Part shown: positions 4,647-39,686 of the stretch, piece by piece
Position numbering within the stretch: position 1 is the first letter of the stretch
Layout: each line of letters begins with the position of its first letter
Assembly: GCA_000310025.1 (NCBI GenBank)
Contig: FN648791.1
Coordinates: 1 to 39,686 of the forward strand
Direction of reading: 5' to 3'
DNA length: 39,686 bases
Source of the DNA: Ectocarpus siliculosus
Taxonomy: Eukaryota > Sar > Phaeophyceae > Ectocarpales > Ectocarpaceae
Position numbers and translations under genes: made by a program
The notes under the pieces: generated by a model
Databases searched by the model: none
What the model was told of the DNA's origin: nothing
Seen by the model: only the letters and a program-made list of their open reading frames with translations

Positions 4647-5635
4647 TTGCGTAGGCTCTGCATTCCGTCTTCCCGCCCCGAGTAGGTGTGTGCAGTGAGG
4701 GGGGCCGGGCGCCTTTTGTTAACTCGTTGCTGGGTTCCCTCAGGCTTTGCGGATCTTTCCTTTGTCGACACGAACTATTCTGAGGTTGTCGTTCGTTTTA
4801 GCGTTGCACTTATCGCCGGCAGCCGCGTGGGAGGTATCCCTCCCACCTAGAGAATGTCTTGATTCATGTAGCTTGTGCTTCATACATATGCTACTATTGG
4901 CCGTTCGGCCGCACCCTTTTCGTTTTGGGTTTGCGTGGCCAATATATACATACCGTTTCATCGGTGCCTTTTCCCTTGGGGGCTGCGTGTCCAACGCGCA
5001 CACTACACACCCACCTAATAATAAGTAGTGATCGTTCGGGTTGTTTACGATCACACCACACGGTCACATGCCGTCTTAGTTCATGTGCCTCTCGCGTACT
5101 GACGTACCTCGTGGTGCACGCCCAACTAACACCAACACATATGCACACCAATATCGCCATAGCTAGCAATCCCGTCTGTGAGTAGGTAGACTTACACTTG
5201 GATAAGCCCGGCGAGACGTTGTGTTAGTTGGTCTGTGCGCTGTCATGTTTTCTCGACGGTACGCCTGGATACACAGCATCGAATCGACGTTCGCTTTGTA
5301 ACGTAATTTCACACGCGGCCATACAAATTGGGCCCCGAAAAGAAATATATATATACCATGCTGTGTGCCTTTTATATGTTGATGGGAACCCGTGCGGTCA
5401 CTTCTCCGCGCCCAGTTTTCCTCTTCACAAAAAAAAAAAAAAAAAAAAAGAGCAGGGGAGGGGGGGGGGGGGAATCTTGATCTCTGTTTTCCCGACGCCC
5501 CTCCACCGAAATTCGAAATCGTTGTCTGTGTCGCCCCACTCCGAACTGTTCTTTTTACGCTTGACTCACGGGTAAGTGGCAGCAGAAAACAGGCTGCGGA
5601 CGCTTGACCTCCGCCACAAAAGCGTGGAGTGGATC
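4647..5635 (+). other. spacer between ORF1 and ORF2
   Basis: About 990 bp with no recognisable coding sequence; the short ORFs here overlap in several frames and look random. It contains a run of 21 A at 5429-5449 directly after CTCTTCAC, and a run of 12 G at 5461-5472. A GTAAGT at 5572-5577, just before the open RT frame, resembles a splice donor but has no matched acceptor that I could support. The leader or promoter for the RT transcript may lie here. Confidence 0.5.
5429..5449 (+). repeat. A21 tract upstream of ORF2
   Basis: Uninterrupted run of 21 adenines preceded by CTCTTCAC and followed by GAGCAGGGGAG and a G-run. A tract of the same length and similar left context occurs at 7880. 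Confidence 0.95.
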
Positions 5636-14373: not shown

Positions 14374-14462
14374 TGGCTGCTATCGTGGCACGTACAGCAA
14401 CCGCGACAAGTCAGCGTGCGACCATACAACAGGCCCCGCTCTTTCTTTTTGCCGTTGAATTG

Positions 14463-20870: not shown

Positions 20871-22376
20871 AAACGAAACAATTTGCAGGCGAGCAGAGAA
20901 CGGTAGGTCTAGGTAAACACGTACCAGTTTTTTCTCGCGTCCTGGTCAGGCATGTTCGGTGTCGGCAACGGTCGGACGGGTGATGGGGCGTATTCCGACA
21001 AAAGCATTGTACTCGTACAATACAATCCACACTTTGTCTCACAAGGACCGCTGGCAGAATGGCTGTTGCTGTACTTCTAGACGAACACGCCACAACGCAT
21101 GAGCGCAAAAAATGCTGCACATGGTATGCATGTCACTACAAAAGATAAACGATATAATACCACTGCTGCCGACTTGACCGACGGATTGCAGCAGGTTTCG
21201 GCGATACTACTGCTGTATCCGCGACAGGCAGAAAATAGACGGCGTGTCGTCTATTTTGTAGGTAGAATACAAGTACTCTCGGCATGTATTTGCCCACACG
21301 CAAAAAGTACAGACATGCAGCGGTGGATCACAAATTAGGTACAGCACCTGCGTGGCACCAGCATGTTTTGATGTGTTTGTATGCTACAGATTCAAGAGGA
21401 CACATGTGGGTGCAGCAGCTTGTACCATGAATACCACCTGGCACATGCTTCGACTTGCAGTGCGAGACAAAGAGTTGGGGGTGGCGCGGGTGCGAGCGAG
21501 TGCGGTGAGACAACAGAGAGGGGACGAGAGCGAGACACACACACACACACCAGGCCGCGTAGACAGAAAACTCGCTTCTCACAGACCTGCTGCTGTAACC
21601 TCGAGGCCCGAGACATGGGCTTCTACTTTCAACAACCTGGCTGGCTCTATCCAGCAAGTAGGACATGCTCTCGGTATCGTGTTGCTTCGCGCTTCGCCTT
21701 GGCCCGGGGTGTTGCCTGGCGCCGAGCAGGGAAAACTGCATGCGGCTGGACCTACAGCAGCGCCATTATCCGCCCTGTCTGCTGAATCCAGCCGGGACTT
21801 GCCTTTGGTGACCACCAACCCCATCTATGTTGGGCCCTACCATGGTATTGCGCGTGTGGGGTCGTTGTCTGTGGAGTGCGGGGTGTGGTTGAAGGGGCAT
21901 GCCCTCTCGCCATCACATGCGGCGAGATTTATTTGGAAAGTTGCCTTGCAGCGTGTATAAAATGAAAGTGTTGGTTCCAAACATTTGGACCCAAATTTCC
22001 AGAAATTTTGGACAAAAAAATTGGAATGTATAAAACGCCCCTTATCAACAAGAAGTTTGAAGGCCGGCTGAGAAGGTTTGAAGACACAAATACATAAGCG
22101 ACGATGGCAAGCGCATCGTCAAAACTTCACAAGAAGAAAAGTGAATACAAAAAAGAAAAGGCCGGATGCCGACCTATGGCTCTCTCGGAATGCAGGGATT
22201 CCCACAATGTCCAATAGGTAACACAGGTGGAGGTCGAACCCCCTTGGGGACTTTTGGGCAAGGGGGGGGGGGGGGGGTCATCGGCATGGTCGAGCCCCTG
22301 AAGAGTCCGTTGGGTTGTCCAACTTCCGTCCCTTGACCAACCTTGGCAACCCCTGACAGAAAAACGGTTTGGCAAA
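20871..22376. other. no gene recognised, 1.5 kb
   Basis: A plus-strand frame of 202 codons (21352-21960) is the longest here. It has no recognisable domain and could be open by chance. A G17 run lies near 22261-22277. Confidence 0.4.
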
Positions 22377-22720
22377 CTCATTGCCTACGATGTGCTTGCC
22401 AAGCTCGTTCGCGTACGTGAGATTGGCAAGGCTAGTTAGCCAGCGTGCGATTGGCGATTGGCAAGGTCGTTTTCGAACTTGAGATTGGCAAGGCTAGTGC
22501 GGGAACATGTGATTTGCAAGGCTCATTGCCTACGATGTGCTTGGCAAGGTCGTTTTCGAACTTGAGATTGGCAAGGCTAGTGCGGGAACGTGTGATTGGC
22601 GATTGGCAAGCTTGTTCGCGAAAGTTGGATTGCAAGCTCGTTCGCGACCCGGAGATTGGCAAGGCTCATTGCCTACGATGTGTTTGGCAAGGCTAGTTCA
22701 CGAGCGTGAGATTGCCAAGG
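22377..22720. repeat. 144-bp tandem array with GATTGGCAAGG sub-repeats
   Basis: CTCATTGCCTACGATGTG recurs at 22377, 22521 and 22665 (period 144). Within each unit GAGATTGGCAAGGCTAGT or close variants repeat several times. Two full units and a partial third are present. Confidence 0.93.
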
Positions 22721-24388
22721 TGCACTGAGCACTTCGACTGGCAGGCTCGGTGAACGTACGAGATAGTTAGCCAGTCACGTTCGCTAAGGCCGACAACGCG
22801 AAGGTCGTACCCGCCCCCGCCCCCGGCACCTCACAGCCGTCGTGGTCGAGGACAGTAAGAGATGCATCTAGAGTTCTTCCTTTTCTCGCGAATCCACACA
22901 TGCTTGTAAATTACAAAAAAAGCGACAGCGACTCTTCTCGATGCAATATGTGCCTCTCTAGAGTAGACCGACGCACAGCGCGAGAGGTATATCGGCAAAA
23001 AGGCAACAAAGTCATGCAGTAATAGAAACATACCAGCAAGTACAATCAATTGAGTCCGTAGCGGAAATACGCGCACAACTCCCCCCATGGCAAAAAAAAA
23101 ACGCGACACATGAGTCATCATCATCACCCTCCACCCTCTCCAGATGACACGCTACAACACGAAGCGCCACCACATGTAACTCACAAGAGTAGACACCATA
23201 AAACCAAGAGAATGGTCGAAAGCTACACAAGAGACACAGCATATGCCACAAAACGCACACCGAGATATCACCGTAACCCGCCTTCTCACTTTCTCTATCA
23301 CAAGACAAGCAAAAACAACCGACATAATCGAACACCCGCAGACCACAACACTAGAAACGCCCCCGCACGCAGGGGCACAAGAAGAGACACCCCTCTCTAC
23401 TTCTACGCGCAGCCTATGTACCGTCCTCGAGGAACTCAACATTTTACACGTGCATATACATGATTCGGATACTTGAACAACACCCCGCGAGCTTTCTTGG
23501 TCGAACCCGGCAAGGGTCAGACCACCAGATAGCAACAAACACGTGGATAAGACGTACTCACAAAAAACCATACAAAGTCCTTGGCGAGAGGAAAGTCCGC
23601 GGCTTCGCGCACCTCCTCCGTCAGCCACGACTAAAACACCACAGCAAGAAGAGTAACCACCCTCTCTACGACAGTCTAGATGTAAAAACTAAGACAATGT
23701 ACCACAACAACAGCGGTACCAAACCCTGTGCCATTCGACCGGCACCGTCCGCCGTGCAACGTCGATGACCTCGCATTATTTTACAAATGAACAGGATGCA
23801 CACGCATCCCTTGAGCCTCTCTCGACAAACACATGATCACCCGTGATTTTACAGAACCCCCGCCCGCGCTAACAAAAAAAAAACACAGCACCGTCTGCAG
23901 TCACAGACAAAAATACGAAAACAAAATGTAAATACACACGTCGATAACAACAACGGAACAAGACCGTCTTCTTCTACGCGCAGAGTACCCTACCATTCGA
24001 CTAGTGTACCGTCCGCCCTGCAGCGTCGACGACCTCACACTATTGTACACATGAGGATATGAACACGATGAGGTGATCTCATAATTTACATGATCATCAT
24101 AATTTTCATGATCATCCGCAAGTTTTCAAAAGTCCGTGCCCCAATGCTAAAACAAAAAAATGCAGCAAGAGTCGTCACCTTCTCCCATCACGGGGAAATA
24201 ACGAAACTAAAATGCCTTCTGTTGGCAGTGCGCGCAACAGAAAGCTAGACACACGCCAAAACCAAACCACAGCGACTCGCCTCCGAAGAGACATGGTCGG
24301 CCACCTTGCGACCTTCCACCTGCGTTCATTTTCGCCCCGCACGGGGGGTTCTGAACAGGCTGTGGTAGAGGCCAAGAGGGCACAGCTT
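22721..24388. other. A/C-rich region without a recognised gene
   Basis: 1.7 kb with short ORFs only. It contains a diverged direct repeat: a 65-bp block with ACCGTCCGCC, TGCA(A/G)CGTCGA and GACCTC lies at about 23726-23790 and again at about 23991-24055. The start of the region follows gene B, whose last exon ends at 24389. Confidence 0.5.
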
Positions 24389-24605
24389 CTATCCAGAAGC
24401 CTCTCCTGCTGCTCCTGCCCCTCCGGCAGCTGCTCCCGTCGCCGCCCCTTCAGCAGCTGATCCAGCCGCGGCCGACGCCGGACTCGAAACCGTCAGGTAC
24501 GGCTTGAAGAAAATGTCCGCGTCTGCTTTGGACGTAATGATGTCCGGCGTCGGGTTCTTGTCTTTGGCGATCTTGGACACGAAATTGCCCAAAAATGTGC
24601 GCACC
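24389..24605 (-). CDS. gene B, last exon
   Basis: The acceptor is TTTCTTGCAG; the first G completes a Thr codon split AC|G with the previous exon. The protein reads VRTFLGNFVSKIAKDK, NPTPDIITSKADADIF and FKPYLTVSSP, then a low-complexity Ala/Gly/Ser tail (AAAGSAAEGAATGAAAGG) to a TAG stop. The pattern F-x3-F-x9-P-x-P-D and then D-A-x4-K-P-Y-L is shared with the last exon of gene A, which also has a split Thr codon at the same point. The tail is poorly constrained and differs entirely from gene A. No known domain recognised. Confidence 0.75.
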
Positions 24606-25225
24606 CTGCAAGAAAGGGAAATGGGCGCGAGCCGAGGGAGAACAGGAGGCGACGCTCAGCCCGTGTCCCGAGGGCGATTGCAAAGCCCCCAAAACGTCCA
24701 CAGTCATCAGACACCGGTAGAAAATTCATGGTCCAAAGCCTTCACACATAGGAGAGATCAGATCCACGCAGATCGAGCTAAATAGCTCTTTTGTTGAGGG
24801 GTATGATATGTCCCTGTTGATCGTTAGGGCATACTCCGAGTAGTAGGTGTTCGGTGTAAGTTTCCCCGAGGTGATCTGAAGGACATAGGGAACCGGGCCC
24901 ATACGTAGGCCATTTTTATGTTTGACAGGAAGACACAAATAAAAATCATCGAGTATGAGTGGGGTGGAGGCGGGTTGTTACCCGCGCTCCCACCAATCAC
25001 ATGTCGATAATGTAGGACAGAGATATGTGTAGAAGATTGACTGGTTGTTTCACACCGCCAAGCGGGAATCCCCTGAAAGACGTAGCACAGCAGAAGAAGC
25101 GGTAGCAGCAGCACATACATGATGACACACACACGTAGACAACACACGAGACAACAAGCACAGCAGCACACGAGACTGCTGTAGACCAAGGCGAGCCAAA
25201 GGTACACATCATAGGAGGCTTCGGG

Positions 25226-25475
25226 TGCGAGACTGTCAGAGCCCGTCACCTGCTGCTGGCAGCGTAAAAGCGAGGGAAAAGCAAGTGCACACAAGTCAAT
25301 CAATCTGCGGTCTTTCTCCGTCGACTGCCGGCAGGCCAATCTTTGACCCACAACAGACGCACCCCGAAACAGCGAGACAACGAGACGTACACACTTAGGG
25401 GCCATCGGGGCGATTTTTTTAGAGCCTGTTGCCTGCTGCTAGCAGAGTCAGCGAGGGAAGTAAGTAGTGCACATG
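25226..25475. repeat. diverged direct duplication in a gene B intron
   Basis: Blocks at about 25226-25290 and 25418-25475 share AGAGCC, CCTGCTGCT, AGCGAGGGAA and GTGCACA in order. Nearby, GGTGATCTGAAGGACATAGG also recurs in variant form at about 24870, 25770 and 25817. Intronic, function unknown. Confidence 0.6.
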
Positions 25476-25979
25476 CACACAGCAGCAGCAGCAGCAGCAA
25501 GCAACAGATTTGAGAGCTTCTCGTTTACACCATCAAATGACGTCCGGCGTTCACGTCTGGCTGGTGGTGGCGGGTGAGGTGTGTGTGTGTGTGTGCAGTG
25601 GCAGTGGTGGCCTCTGTGTGGTGGCTTACATGGGCTACATCCATATCGAACTACACCTGTTTGCCTCTCTCTCTCTCCCCCCCCCTTCTTTTTCGCGCTC
25701 GCTTCATTATATTTCGCTGGACCCTACGTATGGGAGGCGAGCCGGACATAGCGATCAGGGTATGTTTGCCAGAGGTGAGCTGAAGGACATAGGTGATCGT
25801 GGAATGTTGGTTCGGTGGTGACCTGAAGGACACAAGGTGAGCTAGCTCATGATCTATCCGATGTGTGAAAGCCGTGTGAGTGACAATAAAGTGTGCATAG
25901 ATCGACCGGGTGCGGCCGGGGTAGCACGTCGTCGGAGATTCTCCGTTGATTGTCCTCGAGGAGGCAACACTACACTCAC

Positions 25980-26269
25980 GTCTGGTTTAAGACCTGGTCG
26001 TTGCTAGTATCCAGGTACTTCCACTTGATCTTCTTCTTGCTCGGAGGCGCGCCGCCGTTCCTTCCTCCTCCGGACGCCGGAGTGCGGTACTTGTCCGCCC
26101 AGTCAGCTGCTCGGAGCATGGCGTTGAACCCCGGAGCCTCGTAAACATGCAGCTGTTCAGGCCCCATCTGTCCCTCGGACCCCTGGCTCTCGTCGGGGTT
26201 CTCTTTGTTGTACTGCAGGCGGTCCTCGTTGAGGACTTCAACGAGCCAATGCACCACCTGGAACTTGAT
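25980..26269 (-). CDS. gene B, penultimate exon
   Basis: The acceptor is GATGACTCAG and the donor is GTGAGT at 25979. The exon is 290 bp, phase 0 in and phase 2 out, and its last two bases begin the split Thr codon. It reads IKFQVVHWLVEVLNEDR, then an acidic/polar stretch (ENPDESQGSEGQ), a middle part (YEAPGFNAMLRAADWADKY), a Gly-rich basic linker (PSKKKIKWKYLD) and ends NDQVLNQT. An ATG lies just upstream at a weaker acceptor (TTTTAAG), but that choice puts a stop in frame with the preceding exon. Character is that of a soluble protein; no family recognised. Confidence 0.75.
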
Positions 26270-27896
26270 CTGAGTCATCACTTAAAAGGCAGGGAAGTCG
26301 CGCGTCGGCCGAAGATGTGATTGTTATTAGAGCAAGCAGAAACAAGGCGATAGGTAAGGATTGTGTAGCTGGGTTATCACAGTCGACGGAGCGTCCTGCT
26401 TGTCAGCACAAACCACGATTTACCGAACCCATCGACTTGCTGGACCATCTGTGGGGGTACCATCGCTTTCTCGAGAGTTCACGTACAAGGGAAAGCAGCC
26501 TAGATAGAACAGGGGAAAGAGGGCTAATATAGTAGGGGTTTGCCAGGTTTGGAGGCCAATACCTTGGCTTCCTTCCTGCCTACACCTCCTTTGAGGTGAA
26601 AGAACGGAAGGTATGCGGGGCAAAGTGAACAGGGGGGTACATGTACCCTTCGGGGACAAGAAGGCGTGCCTGGTTTCTCTCCCTCTCTCTCGCTCGGCTC
26701 GTGTTGAGCAAAACCTACAGCTGGGAGGGAAACAATACACGGGCTCCCATCTCGACCAAAATCTAAGCAAAAGAGCGTAGTGCGGGACGTGGGGCACATC
26801 ATTCCAAGCAAATGAAAGTCGATGATGCGCGAGCGGGGGGTAGGTGGGTGGGCGGGGAAGCGAAGTCATGCCGGGGCCGTTCATAGCAGTGGGACAGGAA
26901 CTACATGATACAGACACGGTTAAGTTTGATAAGTTCAAGAATTCTGGCATTTTTTTTCTTCGACGTACACCTATACTGAATGAAACATTCGGGACGCCGT
27001 GTGGAACACCGACAGACGAAAGAAAAACGATACCCTCAACCCTCGCGTTGTATACCCTTCATGTCTCCGCTCCATTCCCCCAAGTTAACTACTCAGCCAA
27101 CCCGTATAGCCTCCACCCCTGTGGGGCTACCTGACCCTCTCTCCTCACCCCAACATACAACATATGAATGTTCTCGACAAAACAAAATGACAAAAGATTC
27201 ATAATTTTTTGTGGGCGCTTGTCGTGACCGACCGATTTTGTGCAACCTGACCCCCCCCCCCCCCCTCTCCTGAGCGACGAGGGCGGGCGGGTGGGAAAGT
27301 CGATCAGTCCTGTATCCACTCCTTCACTCTCTTCTCTATTGTCTCTCTCTTGGTACCACAGGCTCCCCGCTGTCGAGCGGTGCGCGTCGAGGGCGAACTG
27401 CAGGCGGGCCTGATCCGTGTGTCCTCCGGGGGGGGGGAGGGCACGGAGCACAGCTCACTACACCCCCCCTCTGGTATATGTTTTCAAATTCCGATCCACG
27501 ACACAAACAACGCTTTCCTTCTGAACGCTACATATTCGCCCTGATCACGTTGAGCCGCGTGCCATAAGACATACTAGGTGTCGCTACAACGAGCGACAGC
27601 TGATAAATGTAACTGTCGTCAGACGTGTGCGTCCACGGTGGAAACAGAGTGCATACACCACACACTTGATACTTCACCTACCTGCTGTGCGCTGGTGTGA
27701 GACCTGTGGTAACGTTACCTTTCACCTACCGGTTAACTCCCCCCCCGTCCACATCCCGCTTTCGTGGTCATACATACCCCCCGCATACTATTGCTGAAGC
27801 TCCTGTTCTCTCTTTTTTGTTCGGTGTTGTCCAACTGCTAGCGAAACAGCAGGACACAAGTCAGTTCTCGTCACCTAGCGCACCAATCGTCTTGGT

Positions 27897-28156
27897 ACCA
27901 CTTCGAGCGTGTGCTCCATTGCGATATCTAGGGCCGTGACAGTTGTGTTAGGCATGGGTGCTGTGTGTGGGAAGACCTTCGTGGCGGCGTGGAATCCAAA
28001 TCGTTTTTTTGGCCCGGGCAATTGGGCCACATCGCAAGGCGAAAACGCCAAACCGGATTTCACATCACCACGATGCTCTCGCCCCACACAGCACTCAATG
28101 CCCAACGCAACTATCTTGCCCAGAGACACCACAATGGATCACACGCTCGAGGTGGT
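27897..28156. mobile_element. small fold-back element (imperfect 260-bp palindrome)
   Basis: The left arm starts ACCACTTCGAGCGTGTG and the right arm, reverse complemented, starts ACCACCTCGAGCGTGTGATCC. The arms keep pairing to the centre, where GGCCCGGGCAATTGGGCC lies. Identity falls inward. There is no coding capacity, and it sits in the 2.3-kb intron of gene B. This looks like a miniature inverted-repeat element; no target-site duplication is evident. Confidence 0.75.
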
Positions 28157-28582
28157 GCGATGGCGATCGGCGTCCTAGGTGTCGAGAACTAACGTGGTGC
28201 TGTGCTCACATTGCTGGCAGTTGATGAACGCGGCGGTAACAAAAAATCATGCGCGACAGACAGCACAATGCATACCGTCATCACACCACAGAGAGTCCAG
28301 CCCAATCGAGCCCAGATGCTATTGCCCGCTGTGCGTGTGTTGTCTGCTGTGTGGTGTCGCCCGCAGTGCGTATGTTCTCTGCTGCAATCCTCTGTGCGTT
28401 CCGAGAACAAAAGGGCATCTGCTGACCCCTGTATTCTAAAATCAAGTCATGTACTCTAAAACCGAATAGACTGTACAAACGTTTTGGTCTTGATGGGGCC
28501 CTCTATTGCGGCGAGACCTCAGGCCAGATTAGAAATCTCGCTTCGCTCGAGCAAAATCTAAAAACAGGTTAGAATGTCTCAC

Positions 28583-28699
28583 CCGAGCGTCGAAATCCTT
28601 GTCCCGGCTGAGCGCGAAGATCTCCCTCAGGGGCCGATTTGTGCGCTGGTCGCGAACGGTTTGGAACGCTCGCCCCGCAAGCTCTCCGGCCGATGCATG
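28583..28699 (-). CDS. gene B, 39-codon exon
   Basis: A 117-bp exon, phase 0 in and out, between acceptor AAACACGCAG and donor GTGAGA. It reads HASAGELAGRAFQTVRD, QRTNRPLREIFALSRD and KDFDAR. Gene A has an exon of exactly the same length and phase, with Gly-Arg-Ala at residues 9-11 in both. It is predicted to be a basic helical segment. It follows the exon that contains the in-frame TAG and precedes the 290-bp exon, with matching phases on both sides. Confidence 0.78.
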
Positions 28700-29458
28700 C
28701 TGCGTGTTTGTCGAAACGTCAGTCCAACACAAGTAACAGTTCGATTTTCGGGTTTTGCGAGAAAGCTACTTTGAACCTTGCAGCAGTTGCCGACAAATCA
28801 AAACACGCGCCAAGAAAATTGTGTTCGAGCCGGGCGACAACATGTATCCGCGAGCTATTGAATGAGGAAAACAAAGAGGGAGAGCGCAAAAGCAGCGGGT
28901 CGTAGCCTACGACCACAACCGCTTCATGTAGTAAGCTTCAGGAATCACGCAACACGCCGCGGGTATGTATTGCCGAATAGTACGCCTTTCCCCAGTATGC
29001 TCGCAAATATGTCTTCTGGTACAACCAAGTAGCCCACGACACGTGACCAAAAACATATTCTTTGGAGAGCATGTGCTTGAGCTTATCATAGTACAAGAGA
29101 GAAACATGCGCGTCCCTGTTGAAGCATATATCGACCACCATTTTTGCTCCATTTGGCGCCTAAGGCAACAAGATTGTGTTCTGAGGCACGCTGCAATAGC
29201 TCTCTCCGATTCACTGGCTGTAATTCAATGAGCGAAAAAAAAGACTTCCGCAACACGCACACGCACAATATGAGCACAAAACAACACGGAACAAGCCAAT
29301 ACGGACTAATGTACGACGAAGAACCCGCCATCGCCTTCCCAAGGGCACACACTCACCAAGACATTGTGGAGAAAACAAAATGAACAACGCCCAACAGCAC
29401 ACAAGTTGCGTCGCCCCCGAGAGGCAACCACCAAACAAAAGACGAATCAGCCACTCAC

Positions 29459-29697
29459 ATCCTTCCATTTCTTGAGCTACGTCTCTTTGAGCTGGGCGAG
29501 GGCGATGAGGCATGATTGCCGACGCGCGGGAACCTCGTTCTCCCTGAAACTATCATCCTCGGACTCCTCCTCGTCGGCGGTCTCGATGTTCCTCTTGGTT
29601 ACGCGGTCGAGGGTTGCCGTGAGGCTGTCGAAGATGACAAGCCGTATGGCCTTGTACATTTCGCAGGACCTGGTCGTCAATGCCGCGACAAACTTTG
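29459..29697 (-). CDS. gene B, exon with an in-frame TAG
   Basis: The acceptor is CGCTTTTCAG and the donor is GTGAGT at 29458. It reads AKFVAALTTRSCEMYKAIR, LVIFDSLTATLDRVTKRN, then an acidic stretch (IETADEEESEDDSF), and CLIALAQLKET. A TAG at 29479-29477 follows, and the frame then continues LKKWKD to the donor in phase 0. It joins the next exon cleanly, so the exon looks intact apart from this one codon. The first two bases need one base from the previous exon, which does not fit the likely donor there, so the upstream junction is unresolved. The TAG means this allele is broken, is read through, or carries a base error. Confidence 0.72.
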
Positions 29698-29811
29698 CTG
29701 AAAAGCGTGCGGCAGCGGGCATTACGGCGACAAATGCGTGCGACAGGATGGGGGGAGGGGCGAGGGGGGGGGGTTAGTGGAAAACACACAGGACGTTTTC
29801 TTCGACGATAC

Positions 29812-29954
29812 CCAAAGAAGAGTGGTGGCGCGTTTTCGCATTGGGGGCTGGAACCCATTCCCAAGGGGATCGAGAGCTGGCCGGCGTGTCTCTCTCTTTC
29901 ATTGTCGTCTTCCGTAATGATGAAGTTGCAAATCCTTTGCTTCTCGGCGAGAAC
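29812..29954 (-). CDS. gene B, third visible exon, 3' edge uncertain
   Basis: The acceptor is AGCTCACCGTAG. The start is in phase 0, continuing the previous exon as ...NNNINLV|VLAEKQRICNFIITEDDN. The frame stays open through ERERHAGQLSIPLGMG and beyond. The candidate donor GTATCG at 29811 leaves two bases, and GTGTGT at 29789 leaves none; neither fits the acceptor at 29698 in phase. The intron downstream has a good branch-point-like CACTAAC and a pyrimidine tract. The last part of this exon is therefore uncertain. Confidence 0.5.
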
Positions 29955-30100
29955 CTACGGTGAGCTCTCCAGAGCGGCTCAGCCCGACGTCCTCATCAGG
30001 GGCTACAATACGCCACAACGATTTTCATGTCCAATCTTGCACAGCAGTGGGGTCGAGGCTGTGTAGCTGAGCCTAGCTGTAGAGAGCTTTCGAACCTTAC

Positions 30101-30241
30101 CACTAAATTGATGTTGTTATTGGCGAGCAGCGCGCCCTTCACCGCCGCTTCGCTGCCCGTCAGACCGTGGGACATGTGCTTCGCCAGGAATGAAACGAGA
30201 CGCTTCCCGTCCTTGTAGTCGTCCACGTCGATCCACCTGGT
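30101..30241 (-). CDS. gene B, second visible exon
   Basis: A 141-bp exon, phase 0 in and out, with acceptor TTTATTGCTGTGCAG and donor GTAAGG at 30100. It reads TRWIDVDDYKDGKRLVS, FLAKHMSHGLTGSEAAVK and GALLANNNINLV, well-balanced coding sequence with an amphipathic helical look. It joins VLAEKQ in the next exon in phase. No family recognised. Confidence 0.78.
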
Positions 30242-30845
30242 CTGCACAGCAATAAATACAAGCAGGGACAGGGACGAGCAGCACGGAGATCAAAGAATGG
30301 TAACATTAAATTCAAGGTCGCGACACGAGGGATTAGTGTTTGATTCTCTCTTCTCTGCGCGCTGTCGTCGAATGTAGTGTGCGGACAGGTACTTCATTTA
30401 TTTTTTGGCACGTATACGTACTGCAGGGATTGTAGGTGCACTTCTTCTTGACGCCGGCCCTTTCCTTGCAAAGTGTGAGTGTTCTTTATACTGTATCTTC
30501 TGATGGCTCTAGCATTTTTGTGACCACCGACCGAGTCTTCGCTAGATTTTGGGAATAGCAACTGACACTTGTTTAATGTGAAGAAAAGAACAACAACAAC
30601 AACAACAACAACAGCGAAAGATATGAATATGACAACCAGGGTGACGCTGCTTCTCGACGCCCGCACTCGTTCGGTTGCACATCCTCCTGACTCCTCAGCT
30701 CCTCAGCGCTCTCCCGCATCCCACTCTTGCCCAGCCTTCGTGAGTCTCTTTTCTACTCTTCTCTTTCGTATGCACAGATGTCGGAAAGGCGCAGTATCTT
30801 TCAGCCAGTCAACATCGTTTAAAACTCACCAACCGCATCTTTTAC

Positions 30846-31064
30846 GCGATAAAAAAACATGTATCTTGGAATCGCTTCCTTAAGCGTGACGGCGGAAGCC
30901 CCCGAAGCCCCTTGCACTTGTACTGTAGTGTGAGGATTCTTCGATAGAGATGGATTCGTTGGGTCGTAATTAGTAGTCTTAACCCTTAGGTGACTACAGG
31001 CTGATTCAGCTCCGTTCTCAGCTCCGATCACTTTGCGTGCCGAAAGGTCGCCGTTGTGCCTCGG
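30846..31064 (-). CDS. gene B, first visible exon
   Basis: A strong acceptor, TGTTTTTTGCTCTTAG, begins a 219-bp phase 0 exon: PRHNGDLSARKVIGAENG, AESACSHLRVKTTNYDPT, NPSLSKNPHTTVQVQGAS, GASAVTLKEAIPRYMFFYR. The chosen donor is GTAAAA at 30845, because it leaves phase 0 for the exon at 30241. A stronger donor, GTGAGT at 30829, would leave one base and break the junction unless another exon lies between. The exon starts at an acceptor, so the gene has at least one further 5' exon that I could not find. Confidence 0.6.
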
Positions 31065-31295
31065 CTAAGAGCAAAAAACACACATAGAGACCAGCAGGGA
31101 GACACAGGCAGCCCACCCCAAAAGCACGCTTATCAGCAATGCGCACAGGACTCACATAGTGCAATACTATTCACCCATGCCTAACCTCTCTGACGTGGGG
31201 CAGATATCCTTTCCAGATCCAATCTACCGGTACTGCCTACCGGTACTGCAAGATTCAAACGCAAAATACCACCGGAGGGTGCATACAGCACCCTG

Positions 31296-32506
31296 AGACC
31301 CATGTTTATGGTCGCCAAATCTTTGAAAAAAATCTTCAAATGTTGTCAAACATTTGCGCGCGAATATCTGCCAGAGGAACATTTGAGTACCGTTTTTATG
31401 GGCAAAAAATCTTTATCGTGTGTTTTTCTCGAAATGCATCGCATGTGCGGCGGGAATCGTGGTCTACTGCTACCAAACGATTTGTGACAGACGAACCACA
31501 AATGCGTCATGGAAACTGAATGTAACGAGCTCGCAAAGGGCTCCCCACAACCCTTGATGCACTGAGCTGATGCTGTGCCCGCCAATATGTAGCGATAGCG
31601 CTCCGGGCGTGCGAGAAAAAATGTTCTCGGTGTCAAAAAGAGACCAAAACGTTCGTCAGCGCTTCCCAACGGCAAAAAGTCGGCCGCTTGAGAGGACATG
31701 TGAGTACAAAACTATCCAGCTCTCGTCCTCTAGACCATCGATTCATGTTTTGTCTTCTTGGGTGTCTTCTCCATCAACGACTCTCATCCGGTTGTGCGTG
31801 GGTTAGCAGTGGCCGCGCTCAGCCGACAGGGAGGCACATCGTTGTGCGCGCAAAGTTGTGGACACAACGTTTTTTTCGGTCTATTTTTTCACTTGGATAT
31901 AGAGCGCTTGTTCCTCCGTCCAAAAAAAAAAATTTTCAACACATCGAGTTCACAGCGACGCGCCTCCCTGCCTGTTGAGTAAGTCCACTGCTTAACCACG
32001 CACATCCGGATGAGAGCTGTTGATGGAGAAGACACCCAAGAAAACAAAACATGAATCGATGGTCTAGAGGACGAGAGCTGGATAGTTTTGTACTCACCTC
32101 TCCTCTCAAGCAGCCGACTTTTTGCCGTTGGAGACACAAACCACGCTTTCTCCGTGCCCTCCAAACCACCCCTGTCTGTTTGTTTTTTTGTGCACGCTTG
32201 ACGAGCTCCCGCCATGTATCAGCCGGCAAAACATTGACACGGTGACTCTAGGGTTGTCCGGATCCCTTTATGAGCTTGCTACGTTGAGTGTGCGCTACGC
32301 AGTGGTTGGTGCTTAGGACGGAAGGGGCGGTCGTCTACTAATCCCGCCGCTCTTGGGAAACATTTTCGCGACCTGCCCCATTCCAAAATATTTGAGAATA
32401 TTTTGCTGAAGATTTTCTCCCATAAACAGTGAAACAAAATCTTTGTCCGCAAATGTTTGAAAATATAAACATTTTCGCAAAGATTTGGCGACCATAAACA
32501 TGGGTC
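31296..32506. mobile_element. 1.2-kb fold-back element with TIRs
   Basis: The left end AGACCCATGTTTATGGTC, continuing GCCAAATCTTTG, matches the reverse complement of the right end. A second, well-conserved inverted block lies near the centre (about 31665-31830 against 31965-32125; CTCTCGTCCTCTAGACCATC and its complement). Between these, the arms can still be aligned with lower identity, so the whole element is one long imperfect inverted repeat with a short loop near 31900. The two halves therefore encode similar short peptides in opposite directions. TGA flanks both ends if the TIR starts at GACCC, but three bases are weak evidence for a target-site duplication. No transposase. Confidence 0.85.
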
Positions 32507-33174
32507 TGAACATGTGATCAACTCGGTGCCGCATCCGCGGGGGAGAGCAGAGCAAGCGTACACCGGAGCCGATGCTAACGTACTGCCTCGGTGCTTGATG
32601 TTGTTGTGATTGCGGTGCGTGTGGTTCCCAGTATTGGGAGTGGACGGTGGTTCGTCTGCTGTGTGCAAAATTTCGCTCAAAGGCAAGGGTTTTCGGGACT
32701 ACAGCTCTGATCACAGCTCCGATCACAGCTCTCTATTTGTAGTACAGATTAGTAAAATTTATCACGATTTTTATGCATTTTGTGCGATAGTGGATGATGG
32801 TCTCGATTCTCTGATGCGCGGGCCGTTTTTTTCGTCGATCTGGCGCTTCTGTGAGGCGGTTTCCCGTCAGTGTATGCTCTGTCCAAAGATGAGGTGGAGA
32901 AGATGTGCCAACAGGTATTGCTTGGACAGGTACATCCTCTGTGCGGACGGTTGCTGTCGGAGACGGCATGCACATGCTCAGAAACTACTCCTGCTGTACA
33001 GTCTATTTCTCTCTGCATAGCTGCTACTGCTGTACAACAGTAGTACGACTGTGCTCACTCCTGTTCGTCACCCTTACATACACCGCGTCCCTATCCCTGT
33101 GAGCCCATGTCTCACAGGGACCCACTGCTGCACTATCCTTGCCACCGTGACTTATGGGTGTACACGCATGCTTG

Positions 33175-33184
33175 GAAAATCTTC
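33175..33184. repeat. target-site duplication, left copy
   Basis: GAAAATCTTC, directly left of the TIR element; the identical decamer is at 34884-34893. Confidence 0.85.
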
Positions 33185-33242
33185 GCACCCTGTACAACTT
33201 TAACCATTAACTGACTAAGTTAGTTGTTTGCCAGACAACTAT

Positions 33243-33700
33243 CGGCTAGTTGTTCGTAAACACCTAGGTGCGCGAGCTCCTGGAAGAGTAGTCATCTACA
33301 GCCAACTAGGTGCGCACGCTCCTGGAATAGTAGTCATCTACAGCCAACTAGGTGCGCACGCTCCTGAAAGAGTAGTCATCTACAGCCAACTAGGTGCGCA
33401 CCCTCCTGGAAGAGTAGGTGTCTGCAGCCAACTAGGTGCGCACGCTCCTGAAACAGTAGGTGTCTGCAGGCAAGTAGGTGCGCACCCTCCTGAAAGAGTA
33501 GGTGTCTGCAGGCAAGTAGGTGCGCACCCTCCTGGAAGAGTAGGTGTCTGCAGCCAACTAGGTGCGCACCCTCCTAGAAGAGTAGGTGTCTACAGGCAAC
33601 TAGGTGCGCACCCTCCTGGAAGAGTAGGTGTCCGCAGCTAACTAGGTGCGGACCCTCCTGGAAGAGTAGGTGTCCGCAGCCAACTAGGTGCCCGGGCAGT
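33243..33700 (+). repeat. 42-bp tandem array, left (about 11 units)
   Basis: The unit contains CTAGGTGCGCAC, CTCCTGGAAGAGTAG and CATCTACAGCCAA. The 42-bp period equals 14 codons, which keeps a long frame open (33228-33641) without it being a gene. Confidence 0.95.
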
Positions 33701-34019
33701 TGTCAATATAGAACATGTTCACGTCGTTTGTTGCCCGGGCAATTGTCAACCACAGAATCGCACACACTAACACCCAAACATAGACAGACACGGGCAGATG
33801 TCAAAATAGAACATTATTTTATTATTATTATTAGTTGCGCCACCTGCCGGCGCAGCAGGGGACTACTGCAGACCACGCAGTCGCACCCACAGATACACAC
33901 GGACGGGCAGGTGTCAACAGTCAATACAGAACAGCTGCCGGCGCAGTAGACTACCACCGCACACCACGCACTCTCTCACACACACAACACACCACCCAAC
34001 GAGCGAACAAGCGCACCAC

Positions 34020-34313
34020 ATGGCGGCGGCTGTTCCACCAGCCGACCCTACACCAGCACCACCAGCAGATGGTGGCCAGCAAACAGACGGAGGGATTGGT
34101 TCGTCGGAAGAAGAGGCAGTGACGGTCGATGATGCATGTTCAATTAGTTTTTTTCACGACCCAGCATATAATAAGCGGATGTTGTTTGGCAGGTCTCCCT
34201 CGCATAGGAGAGAGCTTCTGGTCATCTGGCTAGGTTGGCGTGTCATGCTCGCGGATCATCACACAGCATGCTTGCGTTTGTTGTGGTTCGTTTCACCAGG
34301 AATAGATCGATAA
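34020..34313 (+). CDS. 97-codon ORF in the centre of the TIR element
   Basis: Starts at an ATG (MAAAVPPADPTPAPPADGG). The N-terminal part is Pro/Ala-rich, an acidic stretch (GSSEEEAVTVDDA) follows, and the C-terminal part is more hydrophobic (RELLVIWLGWRVMLADHH, LRLLWFVSPG). No transposase motif or known domain is visible. Its place at the centre of a short element suggests a captured fragment or the decayed end of a larger ORF. It may also be open by chance. Confidence 0.3.
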   Translation: MAAAVPPADPTPAPPADGGQQTDGGIGSSEEEAVTVDDACSISFFHDPAYNKRMLFGRSPSHRRELLVIWLGWRVMLADHHTACLRLLWFVSPGIDR

Positions 34314-34505
34314 AGGTTCACAAGGTGTAAGGTTTGGCTGATCTTCCTCGTCTGCACCCCTTTCTGCGCAGAAACGACCTCTCACTGCTACTACCACTGT
34401 TAATGCGTTCTCCTTGTAACTCCAGGACAGACTATCAACTCTAACTAGTAAGCCAGCTAAGTTAGTTGTTAGAGACAGACAACCACCGGCTAGTTGTTCG
34501 TAAAC

Positions 34506-34845
34506 ACCTAGCTAGGTGCGCACGATGCTGGAATAGTAGTCATCTACAGCCAACTAGGTGCGCACAAATCTGAACCAGTAGGTGTCTGCAGCCAACTAGG
34601 TGCGCACGCCCCTGAAAGAGTAGTCATCTACAGCCAACTAGGTGCGCACTCTCCTGAAAGAGTAGGTGTCTGCAGCCAACTATTAATAGGTGCGCACGCT
34701 CCTGAAAGGGTAGTCATCTACAGCCAACTAGGTGCGCACACTCCTGGAAGAGTAGGTGTCTACAGGCAACTAGGTGCGCACAAATCTGAAACAGTAGGTG
34801 TCTGCAGCCAACTAGGTGCGCACCCTCCTGGAAGAGTAGTTGTCT
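34506..34845 (+). repeat. 42-bp tandem array, right (about 8 units)
   Basis: Same unit and orientation as the left array. Some units carry ACAAATCTGAAACAGTAGG in place of CCTCCTGGAAGAGTAGG. Confidence 0.93.
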
Positions 34846-34883
34846 GGCAAACAACTACCACCTAAAGTAGTTGTACAGGGTGT

Positions 34884-34893
34884 GAAAATCTTC
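34884..34893. repeat. target-site duplication, right copy
   Basis: GAAAATCTTC, directly right of the TIR element and identical to 33175-33184. Confidence 0.85.
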
Positions 34894-35035
34894 TGACCGC
34901 AGAGAGCCAGTTGTGGGGAAAAAGACATACAAAAATTCAAATCAACCCAGTCACGAAATAAATTAAGTTGGGTCATAGTCTACAGCAGTACTGACATCTT
35001 CGGAGAGATCCCAGGGAACGAATGGGAGAGCGAGC

Positions 35036-35049
35036 CAGCGAGAGAGAGA

Positions 35050-35122
<73 letters not shown>

Positions 35123-35212
35123 GCAGACAGAGAGAGGCAGGCAGACAGAGAGAGAAAGAGAGAAAGAGACAGAGAGACAGAGAGAGAGCGAGCGAGAGAG
35201 AGAGAGAGAGAC
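35036..35212 (+). repeat. (GA)n microsatellite
   Basis: A long GA run, perfect near 35055-35115, then interrupted by GGCAGACAGA and AAAGAGA variants. The Glu/Arg and Ser/Leu ORFs across it are artefacts. Confidence 0.97.
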
Positions 35213-35354
35213 AAACAGACACAGGTGGCCAAAGTACCGCCTTGTAGAGGCACATTGGGCAATCTCGAAAAAAAAACATTGGGCACCGATCGCAACCTGC
35301 TGATCTTGGGTAATTCTTGCAATGATGAGGTGGCCAGGTTTGGCAACCTGGACT

Positions 35355-35820
35355 TTTCTTGGAGGTTGGGGCGTAGTCTACAAGGCGGTTGGTGGGTTGG
35401 GGATGATGCGCAAGGTGTGCCTTTTTTCGAGGTTGGCGGACTGTCTACAACCTGGTACGCTGCCAGGTTGCCGAAGTTGGTGCAAGGTGAACCTTTTTGT
35501 GGAGGTTGGGGCACTGTCTGCAACCTGGTACGCGGACATGTTGCCGTTGCTGGTGCAAGGTGAACCTTTTTGTGGAGGTTGGCGGACTGTCTACAAGCCG
35601 GTTGGTGGGTAGGTTGGGGATGGTACGCAAGGTGTGCCTTTTTTGGAGGTTGGCGGACTGTCTACAACATCGTACGCGGACAGGTTGCCGTTGCTGGTGC
35701 AAGGTGAACCTTTTTGTGGAGGTTGGGGCACTGTCTGCAACCTGGTACGCGGACATGTTGCCGTCGCTGGTGCAAGATGTGCCTTTTGTGGAGGTTGGCG
35801 CACTGCAGTGTACAAGCCGG
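35355..35820 (+). repeat. complex tandem array, unit about 72 bp
   Basis: GGAGGTTGGCGGACTGTCTA or GGAGGTTGGGGCACTGTCTG recurs with CAACCTGGTACGC, GGACATGTTGCCGTTGCTGG and TGCAAGGTGAACCTTTTTG. Groups of three units form a higher period of about 216 bp (for example the T-run before GAGGTTGGCGG near 35424 and 35640). The overlapping ORFs in all frames reflect the repeat. Confidence 0.9.
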
Positions 35821-35849
35821 TTGCCTAGGATTTCGGAGGCAACAGCAGC

Positions 35850-36056
35850 ATTGCTGCTCAGCAACAATAACGTTGGTTCAATACCCCCCTCATGACCTTT
35901 TTTTTCCCCTCCCTTTTTTTTCCAGAATTATTTCGATGCGGGTATCGAAACAGATCATTGCTGCTCCGTAACAACGCGGGTTCAATATCCCTTCATGGCC
36001 TTTTCTGCTTTCCTCCCGTTTTTTCCAGTCTTTTTTCGATGCGGGTATCGAAACAG
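35850..36056 (+). repeat. two copies of a roughly 105-bp unit ending in a stem-loop
   Basis: Copies at about 35850-35953 and 35957-36056. Each has ATTGCTGCTC, GGTTCAATA, a pyrimidine tract ending TTTTCCAG, and TTTCGATGCGGGTATCGAAA, in which TTTCGAT and ATCGAAA form a stem around GCGGGT. Confidence 0.92.
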
Positions 36057-36163
36057 TACTACCGCGGCTCATCCATCATCTCGAGCCCGTTGTCGACAAC
36101 TCTCGACTTGCACGAACAAAAAGCGAGGAGCAAGAATTCATAAAACCCAACACATACCCAAGC

Positions 36164-36914
36164 ATGGTTTCCTTTTTAGAACTTCAACCAGCGACGTCGA
36201 TCATGGAGAAGATCCGTAATGCACTCGTAGAAAACGACTGCCTTCTCTCAGCACTAAACAAAGCACTCCCCCCCCCCCGCCGCCCCGAAAGCCCCAGCAG
36301 TATCCATAATATGGTTCCCGTCCTTGTTGAACTTCCCCCCTGCACCACCCACCGCCGTCGATCATGGAGATAATCCGCAGGAAAGCATTACCATTGATTT
36401 AGGAAGACGGATAAACGACGAAGCCGGAGACAACAGCTACACGTAGCGACAGCGGGCCGCCCCCGAAGTCACAGTTCTATACACGGAAAAACGTCGCTTC
36501 CCGAGGACAAAATAAAGTCAAACTGCAGGGACTGCAAAGAGAGACGTCTCTACCCTCCCAACACCACAGGAAAACACCTTCAAGATGGCCTTCCACGCGG
36601 GGACAAGAGAGAAGCATGACGGCAACGACTGGAGAGGCCGCCGCAGTGACAAATTCCAAACGCGCTTGCAAACACGGCAAAAAACCCTACCCGAGAGCAC
36701 TAAGCACTTCGCAGCATTCTTCATCCAAACGCAAACATCAGCCATTGAAAGCGGGGGATAATCTATTCCGCCTCCCCCTGCAACACTGCGGCCCGCCGTG
36801 GAAGAGAGGACCCGGGAAAACGCGTCGAACGACGTTGAAGTGGAGATTCCGGCGACTGCGCCTGGGGGGTGTCGGTCAGCAGTGAAAGAACATGCGAAGA
36901 AGACATCAGAGTAG
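36164..36914 (+). pseudogene. possible decayed plus-strand gene
   Basis: It starts with ATG at 36164 (MVSFLELQPATSIMEKIRN, then VENDCLLSALNKALP) and reaches a run of 11 C at 36268-36278. One base later the neighbouring frame stays coding-like to 36914: DHGDNPQESITIDLGRR, MAFHAGTREKHDGNDWRG, KHFAAFFIQTQTSAIESGG, ENASNDVEVEIPATAPGG. It is broken only by TAG at 36444 and TAA at 36513 and 36759. About ten stops would be expected by chance over 212 codons. Against this, the minus strand also has a 149-codon open frame here (36518-36967), so composition may explain part of the effect. No homologue is recognised. Two copies of an ATGGTT...GTCGATCATGGAGA block (36164 and 36312) suggest an internal duplication. 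Confidence 0.3.
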
Positions 36915-37393
36915 AGTAAACATGGGCAGTCGAGCAATGGAGTGCACGCTTCCACCCTTGGGTGCACTATGTAAATATAAACTTAAAAAACTGACTCTGT
37001 TGTACTCCAGACAACTGTACCTGGTGCCACTTTTGGAATGCCGGGAGGCATAGCGGGACAAACGACCAAAAAACACTACTTAACGGGGTGAAGCACAGGT
37101 GACGCAGGTTGTAGAATACGTCAGAGACAAGAGGGTATGCTACGCAACTCAGCAGAACTAAATCTAATGGGAGGCGAGGTGTATTCAAATATCAGCAGTC
37201 TAGCGGCGAACAGACTCGCTGATGAAACACATGTCGAGGGGAGCCGCGGGTTCTGGACGAAACATGCGACGAAAAGCACCCAGACATTATACATCTCGCG
37301 GGCAGGGGAAGAAAGAAGAAAAAATAGGGAGGCACGAAAGTTCTAGAAGGACAAGCCACGCACCAGGCCAAACGCCCACCTTGTCAACGCGGC
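36915..37393. other. spacer downstream of gene A
   Basis: About 480 bp with no recognised gene. It lies just 3' of the gene A stop codon, so part of it should be the 3' untranslated region of gene A on the minus strand. Confidence 0.4.
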
Positions 37394-37820
37394 TTAAGCG
37401 TCCATAGAGCCATCGGAGCCATCGTCGCTGCCCCCATCTCCATCCCCATCTCCATCACGGCCCGTTCGTCCGCCCCCATCCCCATCCTCATCCCCATCCC
37501 CATCCTCATCCCCATCCCCATCTCCATCACGGTCCGTACCTCCGCCCCCATCTCCATCCCCATCTCCATCACTGTCCGTCCCTCCGCCCCCATCTCCATC
37601 CCCATCTCCATCACGGTCCGTCCCTCCGTCCCCATCTCCACCACGGTCCGCCCCTCCCTCTTCTTGCTCGTCGTCGTCCTTGTCGTCGTCCTTGCCGTCG
37701 TCCTTCTTGAAGAGGTAGGGCTTGAGGTAGCGCTTCGCGTCCTCCGTGCACTTCAAGTCGTCCTTGTCGGGGATCGGCCCAAGGTACTCTTCGCCGAATT
37801 CCATGAACCTCTCCCAAAAC
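37394..37820 (-). CDS. gene A, last exon with Asp/Gly repeat tail
   Basis: The acceptor is TATCGTGTCTTAG; the first G completes a Thr codon split AC|G with the exon ending at 38157. It reads FWERFMEFGEEYLGPIPD, KDDLKCTEDAKRYLKPYLF, then KKDDGKDDDKDDDEQEEGG and about 80 residues of GDGDGDGG-type repeat to TAA. The repeat comes from GATGGG/GGAGAT-type hexamers in the DNA. The motif F-x3-F-x9-P-x-P-D ... D-A-x4-K-P-Y-L matches gene B. Aspartate-rich tails can bind cations or basic partners, but that is only a possibility here. Confidence 0.78.
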
Positions 37821-38156
37821 CTAAGACACGATACAAACAACAAAGAACGTTTCGTTCGCATGGCAGCTGGTGGAACGGCTAAACATGCCGCGGTACATTC
37901 CTCTCTTGTAAGGCTTGCGCTAACCACCTTCGGGTGGAGTCGAAGGTAGGGCACAGTGGAGCTGCCGCAATATATAACGCTAACCGGGAAAATCGCCGGG
38001 AACAAAAAACAACGAAGTGCGTTGTATGATGGCAGAGTTGCATGTGTATTGGGCGCTATGTGGGCGACAAACCTACTCAGCGAACGCCACGGACAACAGG
38101 GCTGGACTACAAGAATACGTCAGCCTTGTTAACATAGCGAGCCAAGCGCAACGTAC

Positions 38157-38374
38157 GTCTCGCGGATGACCGGGTGGTTCTTGTCTCCGCCGCCCTCCTT
38201 TGCTCCTCCCATGGCGTTGTCCAAGAACTTCTTGATCACCGGGAAGGTGCGGTAGCCCACGGGGTCCCACTTGTTCGAGGGGGGCATACGAGCGCGCCTC
38301 CTCGCTGCGATTACATCGCTCAGGAGGACCGGCGCCGCCTCCTCGATAGTCACGGCAAGGACCGGCCCGATTAT
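38157..38374 (-). CDS. gene A, penultimate exon
   Basis: The acceptor is TTGTTTCGCAG and the donor is GTACGT at 38156; 218 bp, phase 0 in, phase 2 out. It reads IIGPVLAVTIEEAAPVLL, SDVIAARRRARMPPSNKW, DPVGYRTFPVIKKFLDN, AMGGAKEGGGDKNHPVIRET. It starts with a hydrophobic helical segment and continues into a basic one. The ORF would otherwise run on for a few codons and stop, but the donor restores the Thr codon and joins FWERF in the next exon. It corresponds in position and phase to the 290-bp exon of gene B, with little residue identity. Confidence 0.78.
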
Positions 38375-39104
38375 CTGCGAAACAATCAGTTCAGTTCACG
38401 CCATGAGGGGGTGGGAGTCGTTGCTGAGCTAGAAAGGCGCAAAAATTAGGGATACACCTGGAAAGGGTGACAGAGCGAAGGAGGACTACCATAGCTTTCA
38501 AATGTCCCGTAGCACGGGGAACGACCAATATCTTATCGTCCCGACGTCTGAGAAGAAGGCTCGCAGGGCGAGCAACCCAGGGTTACCGGTGAAAGGCTGT
38601 TCGTCGGGAACTTGCGTTATGAAAAGTCGGGTTACCCGCCCGAGCTACTCTGCGTGATAGCTACAAGGCGGCCGTGTGTGCGCGCGACATTTTCATACCA
38701 ACAGCAGGAGCAGCAGCGTGTGCGCCAACAATGCTTTACACCGGGCTACAACCAAACACTCCGGTTCTGCATACTTCTTACTCTTCCTTTGCCTCTAAGC
38801 GTGCGGTCGACTCGCCACTCCTTACGCGGACCGTTTGGAGCCTTCATCATCAAAACGAGAGAGGGCCTCAGACTGTTTGATCGACCATTTACGCACGATC
38901 CTCACAGCAGGCACAGGAGCAGACCCCTTCTGTTCTCCGCGGAAAGATGATCTTACAAGCGCCACCCTATGTTTCCAGACTATAGGGCGCCGCGGTTCCG
39001 GGAAATATCAAGTTTTTAACGCCAGGGGTGACTTTTCCCTGGTGTCTGCAAAGGGGAGACGACGGTACCTGGTGATAGGGTGCGGTGGGTTGGCACCCGT
39101 ATAC

Positions 39105-39221
39105 GTCCATGTAGGTCATGGTCTCCATGATCTCGCCCGGACCCACGGGCCTGCTGTGCCTGGCTGGAGGTAGACCCTTGGAGAACATAGCCCGCCCTAA
39201 ACCGCGCATGGCCAGCTCCGA
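39105..39221 (-). CDS. gene A, 39-codon exon
   Basis: The acceptor is TGCGTCATTCTAG, preceded by a long C-rich tract; the donor is GTATAC at 39104. It is 117 bp, phase 0 in and out. It reads SELAMRGLGRAMFSKGLP, PARHSRPVGPGEIMETM and TYMD, joining IIGPVL in the next exon. Length and phase equal the 39-codon exon of gene B, and Gly-Arg-Ala occupies residues 9-11 in both. What lies upstream is not clear: a candidate exon at 39671-39603 is bounded by TTTCAG and GTGAGT and is in phase, but its sequence does not resemble the matching gene B exon. Confidence 0.72.
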
Positions 39222-39686
39222 CTAGAATGACGCAGGGGGTGGGGGGGCGGGGGCGCAGGGAATACCAACTGGGTGAGAGGCAACACTCGTGAGAAGTCAT
39301 GATAGGTGTTTATTGTGACAAAAGTTGAAATTCACGCTACAATTGTGCAGTTTTCCCGCAGTTAGGGTACAAATTTTGGTCAAGAAGGACAGCGCAAGGG
39401 GGTCCCCCGAACAAAGACGATGAACAAGCGAGCAATGCGGGGTGCATCGGCCGGTCGTTGGGTTAAGCGTTTTGGCCGATATCGTGCGCGTAGACGCCGC
39501 ACTTTTACAGTCTGGGGCCTCGTGGTTCGCGTCATGTTCGTTTTGTGAGACCGAGCCAGACCAATTCATCGACACACCCAGCAACGACGACACGCCACTC
39601 ACTACCTTCACTACACCAGACGCACTCATGCAAAAAGCACACCCGCATGTAGTCCGCTGGACGCGTCGACTCTGAAACACACGCCG

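Follow-up and report, generated by a model that had tools for sequence, protein, structure and literature searches.

Two genes with a common C-terminal motif in Ectocarpus siliculosus each lie within a large DNA transposon of their own

Contig FN648791.1 of the brown alga Ectocarpus siliculosus (assembly GCA_000310025.1), analysed here from position 1 to position 39,686 (this whole stretch of 39,686 nucleotides is referred to as the window), carries two multi-exon genes, A and B, which lie on the minus strand about 13 kb apart and encode proteins with the same C-terminal motif, ending in KPYL. A sequence-only reading had described them as tandem paralogues of an undescribed family, and the question raised by this locus is whether they indeed represent a duplicated host family. 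We show that each gene resides in its own large DNA transposon, and that the pair is transposon content, not a duplicated host family. Other contigs of the same genome are denoted below by the letter C and a number.

Transposon A occupies positions 22222–35219, from its left end to the start of transposon B; its right ~1 kb, including the right inverted repeat, is missing from the contig. Copies of A elsewhere in the genome are 87–98% identical and share a sharp edge corresponding to window position 22222, and the repeated sequence spans the whole gene A and continues beyond it. The termini are inverted, CACAGGTGGAGG…CCACCTGTG (CAC…GTG type), with a 29-bp match between both ends of the C120 copy. 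The left terminal inverted repeat, CACAGGTGGAGGTCGAACCCCCTTG (22222–22246, plus strand), is found at 93 places of the genome with at most two mismatches (46 forward and 47 reverse), compared with none for the reversed pattern used as a control. Forty-five of these places are exact, seven have one mismatch, and 41 have two, most of the latter reading …GACCCCCCTTC, that is, the end of a related type of short elements. Seven pairs of A ends lie 11.1–12.5 kb apart (on C120, C130, C182, C460, C94, C143, and C121); an eighth pair, on C50, is separated by 38.7 kb and may not delimit one element. On large contigs there are also three short elements (234, 251, and 274 bp) with nearly the same ends, as would be expected if a transposase acts on the ends alone.

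Comparison of the flanks of the three short elements and the eight long pairs revealed a 2-bp target duplication in seven of these 11 insertions, namely, C2 (TA), C18 (AC), C30 (AA), C94 (TA), C121 (TA), C143 (CA), and C182 (AA); at a rate of 1/16 each, the probability of observing at least seven is about 1e-6. Tandem repeats are situated just inside both ends, with periods of 28 bp at the left and 91 bp at the right. In the window, the left ~28-bp repeats with the TTGGCAAGG motif, identified by a repeat search and TRF, cover positions 22369–22720. In the C120 copy, the word TTGSCAAG was counted 21 times over the 1570 bp that make up the two ends vs. four times in the 10642-bp interior, a part of which is N. 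The gene travels with the left end: in 24 left regions the sequence extends to the exon border, and in 23 of these it continues into the last exon of the gene, C158 being the exception. At C130:66616/66617, two A copies abut in inverted orientation with no spacer, and one of them has no left terminus of its own.

Transposon B, whose first bases are CACAGGTGGCCAAAGTACCGCCTTG, starts at position 35220, where it borders the GA tract of A, and its left part (35220–39686) runs off the contig end. Copies with 95–98% identity and the same left edge are present on C3 and C60, where the sequence is shared up to (C)ACACGTATC, with the right end not clear there; the total length of B is only ~6.3 kb. The B terminus, CACAGGTGGCC, is related to the A terminus and occurs at 14 places with at most three mismatches, the control giving none. 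Subterminal ~73-bp repeats with a GTTGSC core were detected by TRF at 35353–35823, the GTTGSC word being present nine times in the 490 subterminal bp vs. four times in 3847 bp of the interior. Other copies of A continue for ~1 kb past the point where B starts, up to their own right end. Thus B has apparently been inserted into the right part of A, as judged from the left junction alone, since the contig stops at position 39686, within B.

The gene structures agree with the sequence-only reading in all the features that it listed. Two more exons are recognisable in gene A upstream of the three described there: exon 1, the first detectable one (30101–30241), which has a similar counterpart in the element on C29, and exon 2 (29459–29697), which contains an in-frame TAG in the window copy. 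The 39-codon exon 3, with Gly-Arg-Ala at codons 9–11, is present in both genes (28583–28699 in A, where it is flanked by GT/AG borders and has phase 0 on both sides, and 39105–39221 in B). Exon 4 (25980–26269 in A, followed by GTGAGT, and 38157–38374 in B) ends in both genes with AC of the split Thr codon. The last exons (24389–24605 in A and 37394–37820 in B) carry the motif F-x3-F-x9-P-x-P-D…D-A-x4-K-P-Y-L, which in its strict form occurs at exactly these two places of the window according to a six-frame scan. The tails following KPYL do differ, being Ala/Gly-rich in A and composed of an acidic Asp/Gly repeat, detected by TRF, in B. Exons 1 and 2 of gene B lie beyond the window and were read from the copies on C3 and C60. 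The phases of A and B are equal at the exon 2/3, 3/4, and 4/5 junctions (0, 0, and 2, respectively). B is consistent with phase 1 at the junction between exons 1 and 2, and the visible donor and acceptor of A mismatch each other there; A may have an extra small exon between them. The recognisable protein comprises ~290–310 amino acids in five exons, plus the free low-complexity tail.

In order to assess the relationship between the genes, we compared the A lineage (window A and C29) with the B lineage (B and C74), using 1000 shuffles per comparison. For the last exons, the observed score was reached by none of the shuffles in each of the four comparisons, and we accept A and B as homologous in the C-terminal part on the strength of this similarity. 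For exons 2 and 4, it was reached by eight to 434 and by three to 290 shuffles, respectively, and exons 1 and 3 taken singly scored no better than chance. An hhalign comparison of the two lineages yielded E = 4e-4 over exons 2–3, the probability being only 35%. Given the common exon plan, homology of the whole genes is likely, though not proven.

The expectation that further genes with the motif should exist is borne out, as such genes are found on many contigs of the same genome. The counts come from searches of the 189-Mb genome with the best candidates listed and a part of the matched loci examined. The last exon of A matched 24 places among the matches listed, window included, 23 of them with 78–100% identity over 34–37 residues and the remaining one, on C29, with 55%. 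The A exon 2 query produced 27 rows among the matches listed, several copies contributing two rows each. Twenty-three of the 24 listed A-like last exons lie off megabase-sized contigs (at most 340 kb where the length is shown), and one is on C29 (1.05 Mb); a truncated copy of A is present on C4. The A family may sit in poorly assembled regions.

The query with B exons 4–5 gave 38 rows among the matches listed, corresponding to 33 loci besides the copies of A. Six rows represent the three copies of B (window included), two represent the C74 element, one is at the chance level, and the other 29 match the last exon only, with 47–58% identity and E from 3e-5 to 0.1; nine of these 29 have a stop inside the match. 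Five of the 29 loci (C21, C11, C57, and two on C26) were compared with each other and proved ~85–97% alike over stretches up to kilobases; on this similarity they form a third lineage, the C21 group. Among the matches listed for B exons 1–2 were B on C3 and C60, the C74 element, and the C91 element. At least five lineages of elements carry a matching gene: A, C29, B, C74/C91, and the C21 group.

The ratio of nonsynonymous to synonymous substitution rates (dN/dS) equals 0.45 for B vs. C91 (176 codons), 0.42 for B vs. C74 (107 codons), and 0.46 for A vs. C29 (223 codons), and therefore the protein was under purifying selection during the divergence of the lineages. With dS between the lineages of 0.84–1.11, the family is old and diverging, in agreement with the suggestion of an old or fast-evolving one. 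The copies of A are in decay. Four of the eight compared A copies had all five exons readable (the window, C120, C130, and C182), and in each of them exon 2 is disrupted: three copies share an in-frame TAG, and the fourth has a frameshift, which recurs in the partly read copy on C4; the C230 copy has length changes and an altered acceptor. In the C3 copy of B, by contrast, none of the five recognised exons is interrupted; in the C60 copy exon 1 is open, and a TGA falls in the following intron. DNA divergence among the eight A copies fails to define the exons, as most 100-base blocks differ by ~1–7% in exons and introns alike.

The ends of the elements may have a history different from that of the genes. 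When window A is aligned with the C29 element, 40–67% of sites differ up to the middle of exon 5, whereas from there to the terminus (window positions 22222–24620) the differences mostly amount to 10–23%, with two blocks of 28–36% and no codon periodicity. This abrupt switch suggests that one element acquired the end of the other, the alternative being strong constraint on the ends.

The protein itself resembles nothing in the collections searched, in line with the sequence-only reading, which did not recognise the family: neither the exon open reading frames nor the spliced rows yielded a credible match in Pfam, NCBIfam, PHROGs, or the solved structures of the PDB. Weak hits, such as those to DUF5494, the E+ motif, and PRK13450, were below the cut-off and obtained with a single member only. 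The C-x2-C and H-x3-4-H motifs are absent from all four spliced A1 rows, and because of this the KPYL protein does not look like a CMC transposase; nor was a DDE transposase found among the 20 window open reading frames of A and B scanned against Pfam. A giant-virus or bacterial origin finds no support, as none of the 46 pattern matches in viral contigs and none of the 21 in prokaryote genomes were confirmed, neither collection consisting of algal genomes and records close to the genome of the window possibly being absent from them. An opposite-strand gene was also rejected, the longest such open reading frames in the C120 copy spanning runs of N. Similarly, in B, in the C74 element, and in the C21 group, the sequence past the last exon shows no clear codon periodicity of mismatches, and its gaps are not in threes; we treat the conserved segments there as probably non-coding. 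Indirect searches of the literature on the protein or the ends retrieved no named KPYL family, which is not proof of its being unpublished.

The ends of the elements fit the EnSpm/CACTA-like (CMC) class, to which we assign them by inference. According to the available excerpts of PMC12730594, CMCT elements mostly have CA..TG ends and 2–5 bp target duplications. Transposon A has inverted CAC…GTG ends, and only the left end is clear for B; the 2-bp duplications of A fall within this range, and repeated motifs adjoin both ends of A and the left end of B. A CMC element or a partner of it encodes a DDE transposase that bears the C(2)C and H(3–4)H motifs, and among the 20 open reading frames scanned none was found in A or B. 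The 3-bp duplication made by a soybean CACTA element, as mentioned in the excerpts of PMC2613891, differs from the 2 bp of A. Membership in the KDZ (Kyakuja-Dileera-Zisupton) group was rejected, since it requires a duplication of 7–8 bp in the account of PMC12730594, and 2 bp were observed.

In maize En/Spm, TNPA recognises subterminal repeats, and TNPA and TNPD are both required and can act in trans (PMC2613891, in the portion available). By analogy, our preferred reading is that the genes of A and B, presumably distant versions of one element gene, encode a TNPA-like DNA-binding helper, with the transposase supplied in trans; our confidence in this reading is evenly divided. The KPYL protein would bind the TTG(G/C)CAAGG repeats of A or the GTTGSC repeats of B beside the ends, and, once bound, would bring the ends of the element together for a transposase presumably provided in trans. 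The comparison is drawn because the repeats are adjacent to the ends, the element gene is multi-exon and fast-diverging, and the gene travels with the ends. The TNPA and TNP1 helpers described in PMC2613891 likewise are products of fast-diverging element genes accompanied by repeated motifs next to the ends; the likeness is one of analogy, no sequence similarity being shown, and in that account the helpers of one CACTA element bear little resemblance to those of another. Several observations weigh against the TNPA-like helper. The genome search with PF02992, PF18758, and PF18759 gave no matches, although the controls were equally silent; four of the 11 A end pairs (C50, C120, C460, and C130) have no 2-bp duplication; the right end and the target duplication of B could not be fixed from the C3 and C60 copies compared; the strong homology of A and B is limited to the last exon; and, the four A copies readable in all five exons being broken, A may do nothing today.

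Other explanations account for part of the same observations. A host gene family produced by tandem duplication would explain the same orientation, the equal phases at three junctions, and the distance of 13 kb, but each of the two genes is enclosed in a separate dispersed repeat whose left end is defined, and on many contigs copies of A and of B are found apart from each other. The element borders thus contradict this reading at the locus, and we regard it as hardly credible. The homologous C-termini, the fixed exon plan, and the low identity noted in the sequence-only reading stand; the duplicated host gene does not, since each gene is inside its own DNA transposon with terminal inverted repeats. 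A possible, if rather doubtful, alternative is that the gene is a passenger, captured once from the host and having a role outside transposition, e.g., in countering silencing, with the elements mobilised in trans. Precedents exist in the available excerpts of the literature, including giant Ectocarpus families that carry only genes without transposase homology and accessory genes carried by giant elements in fungi and in red algae (PMC12477816), as well as TET/JBP genes on fungal transposons (PMC12730594). Yet the gene is retained under selection in at least five divergent lineages, and no host homologue was seen among the best candidates listed and the part of the matched loci examined.

It is unlikely, in our estimate, that the KPYL protein is itself a transposase of a type missed by current models. 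It is the only conserved coding unit found in B (~6.3 kb) and between A and the C29 element, it has been under purifying selection, and its gene travels with the left end of A; however, the recognisable protein has only ~300 amino acids, lacks the CMC motif pair in the four A1 rows, and has no credible match in the four collections named above. Quite improbable is an extension of this, in which CACAG ends and 2-bp duplications would mark a separate transposon lineage and the KPYL protein would be the only one that its elements encode and a sufficient one, acting as a recombinase or an obligate end-synapsis factor whose fold has no known relatives, and kept by selection across lineages in one genome while the ends and the bodies of the elements were reshuffled.

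The finding is real but of an ordinary sort: an undescribed gene is carried by EnSpm-like transposons. Giant EnSpm, KDZ, and Sola elements with carried genes and broken transposase genes have been reported in Ectocarpus (PMC12477816, in the excerpts available). The elements described here are similar to them in the brown-algal host, the length mostly above 10 kb, the nested insertions, the genes not resembling transposases, the broken genes, and the mobilisation in trans proposed in that paper. B is an exception in being much shorter than 10 kb, and, in contrast to the nested insertions of the giant elements, which in that account are generally common to the copies, the two inserts of A are absent from the other copies spanning the sites. 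A or B may already be a named family in PMC12477816, the comparison being by description only. An apparent orphan gene family thus becomes transposon content, which matters for the annotation of brown-algal genomes, where copies whose exons are open would otherwise pass for lineage-specific genes. Defined ends, repeats, and a conserved protein provide a handle on the movement of giant elements in brown algae and on its need for a small helper protein.

The two inserts nested in A are elements in their own right. A palindromic 1.2 kb element (31297–32505), flanked by a 4-bp duplication, CTGA, has inverted ends (G)ACCCATGTTTATGGTCGCC; more than 20 copies of it are among the matches listed on other contigs, and many further candidates are unscored. 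The other insert (33184–34883) contains 42-bp tandem repeats; its ends are inverted, CACCCTGTACAACT, and its duplication, GAAAATCTT, is 9 bp long. It looks like a non-autonomous Mutator-like element, a label resting on duplications of 9 bp, which we take to be the rule for this type. The empty sites of both inserts were read in C120.

Left of transposon A, a plus-strand open reading frame of 721 amino acids (5576–7741) resembles a reverse transcriptase, with an RVT_1 match at E = 2e-5, below the cut-off. It is followed on the same strand by one of 378 amino acids (8239–9375) with no Pfam hit, which by eye is tyrosine recombinase-like, and together the two resemble a DIRS-type retroelement. Another putative tyrosine recombinase, of 363 amino acids (13288–14379, minus strand), was likewise recognised by eye and has no Pfam hit. 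Finally, EsV-1-7 motifs (PF19114) are abundant in the genome, with 150 scored matches out of 880 candidates, whereas the 14 genomes used as controls gave none, and this abundance marks the host as a brown alga; proliferation of this domain in brown algae is reported in the available part of PMC12477816.

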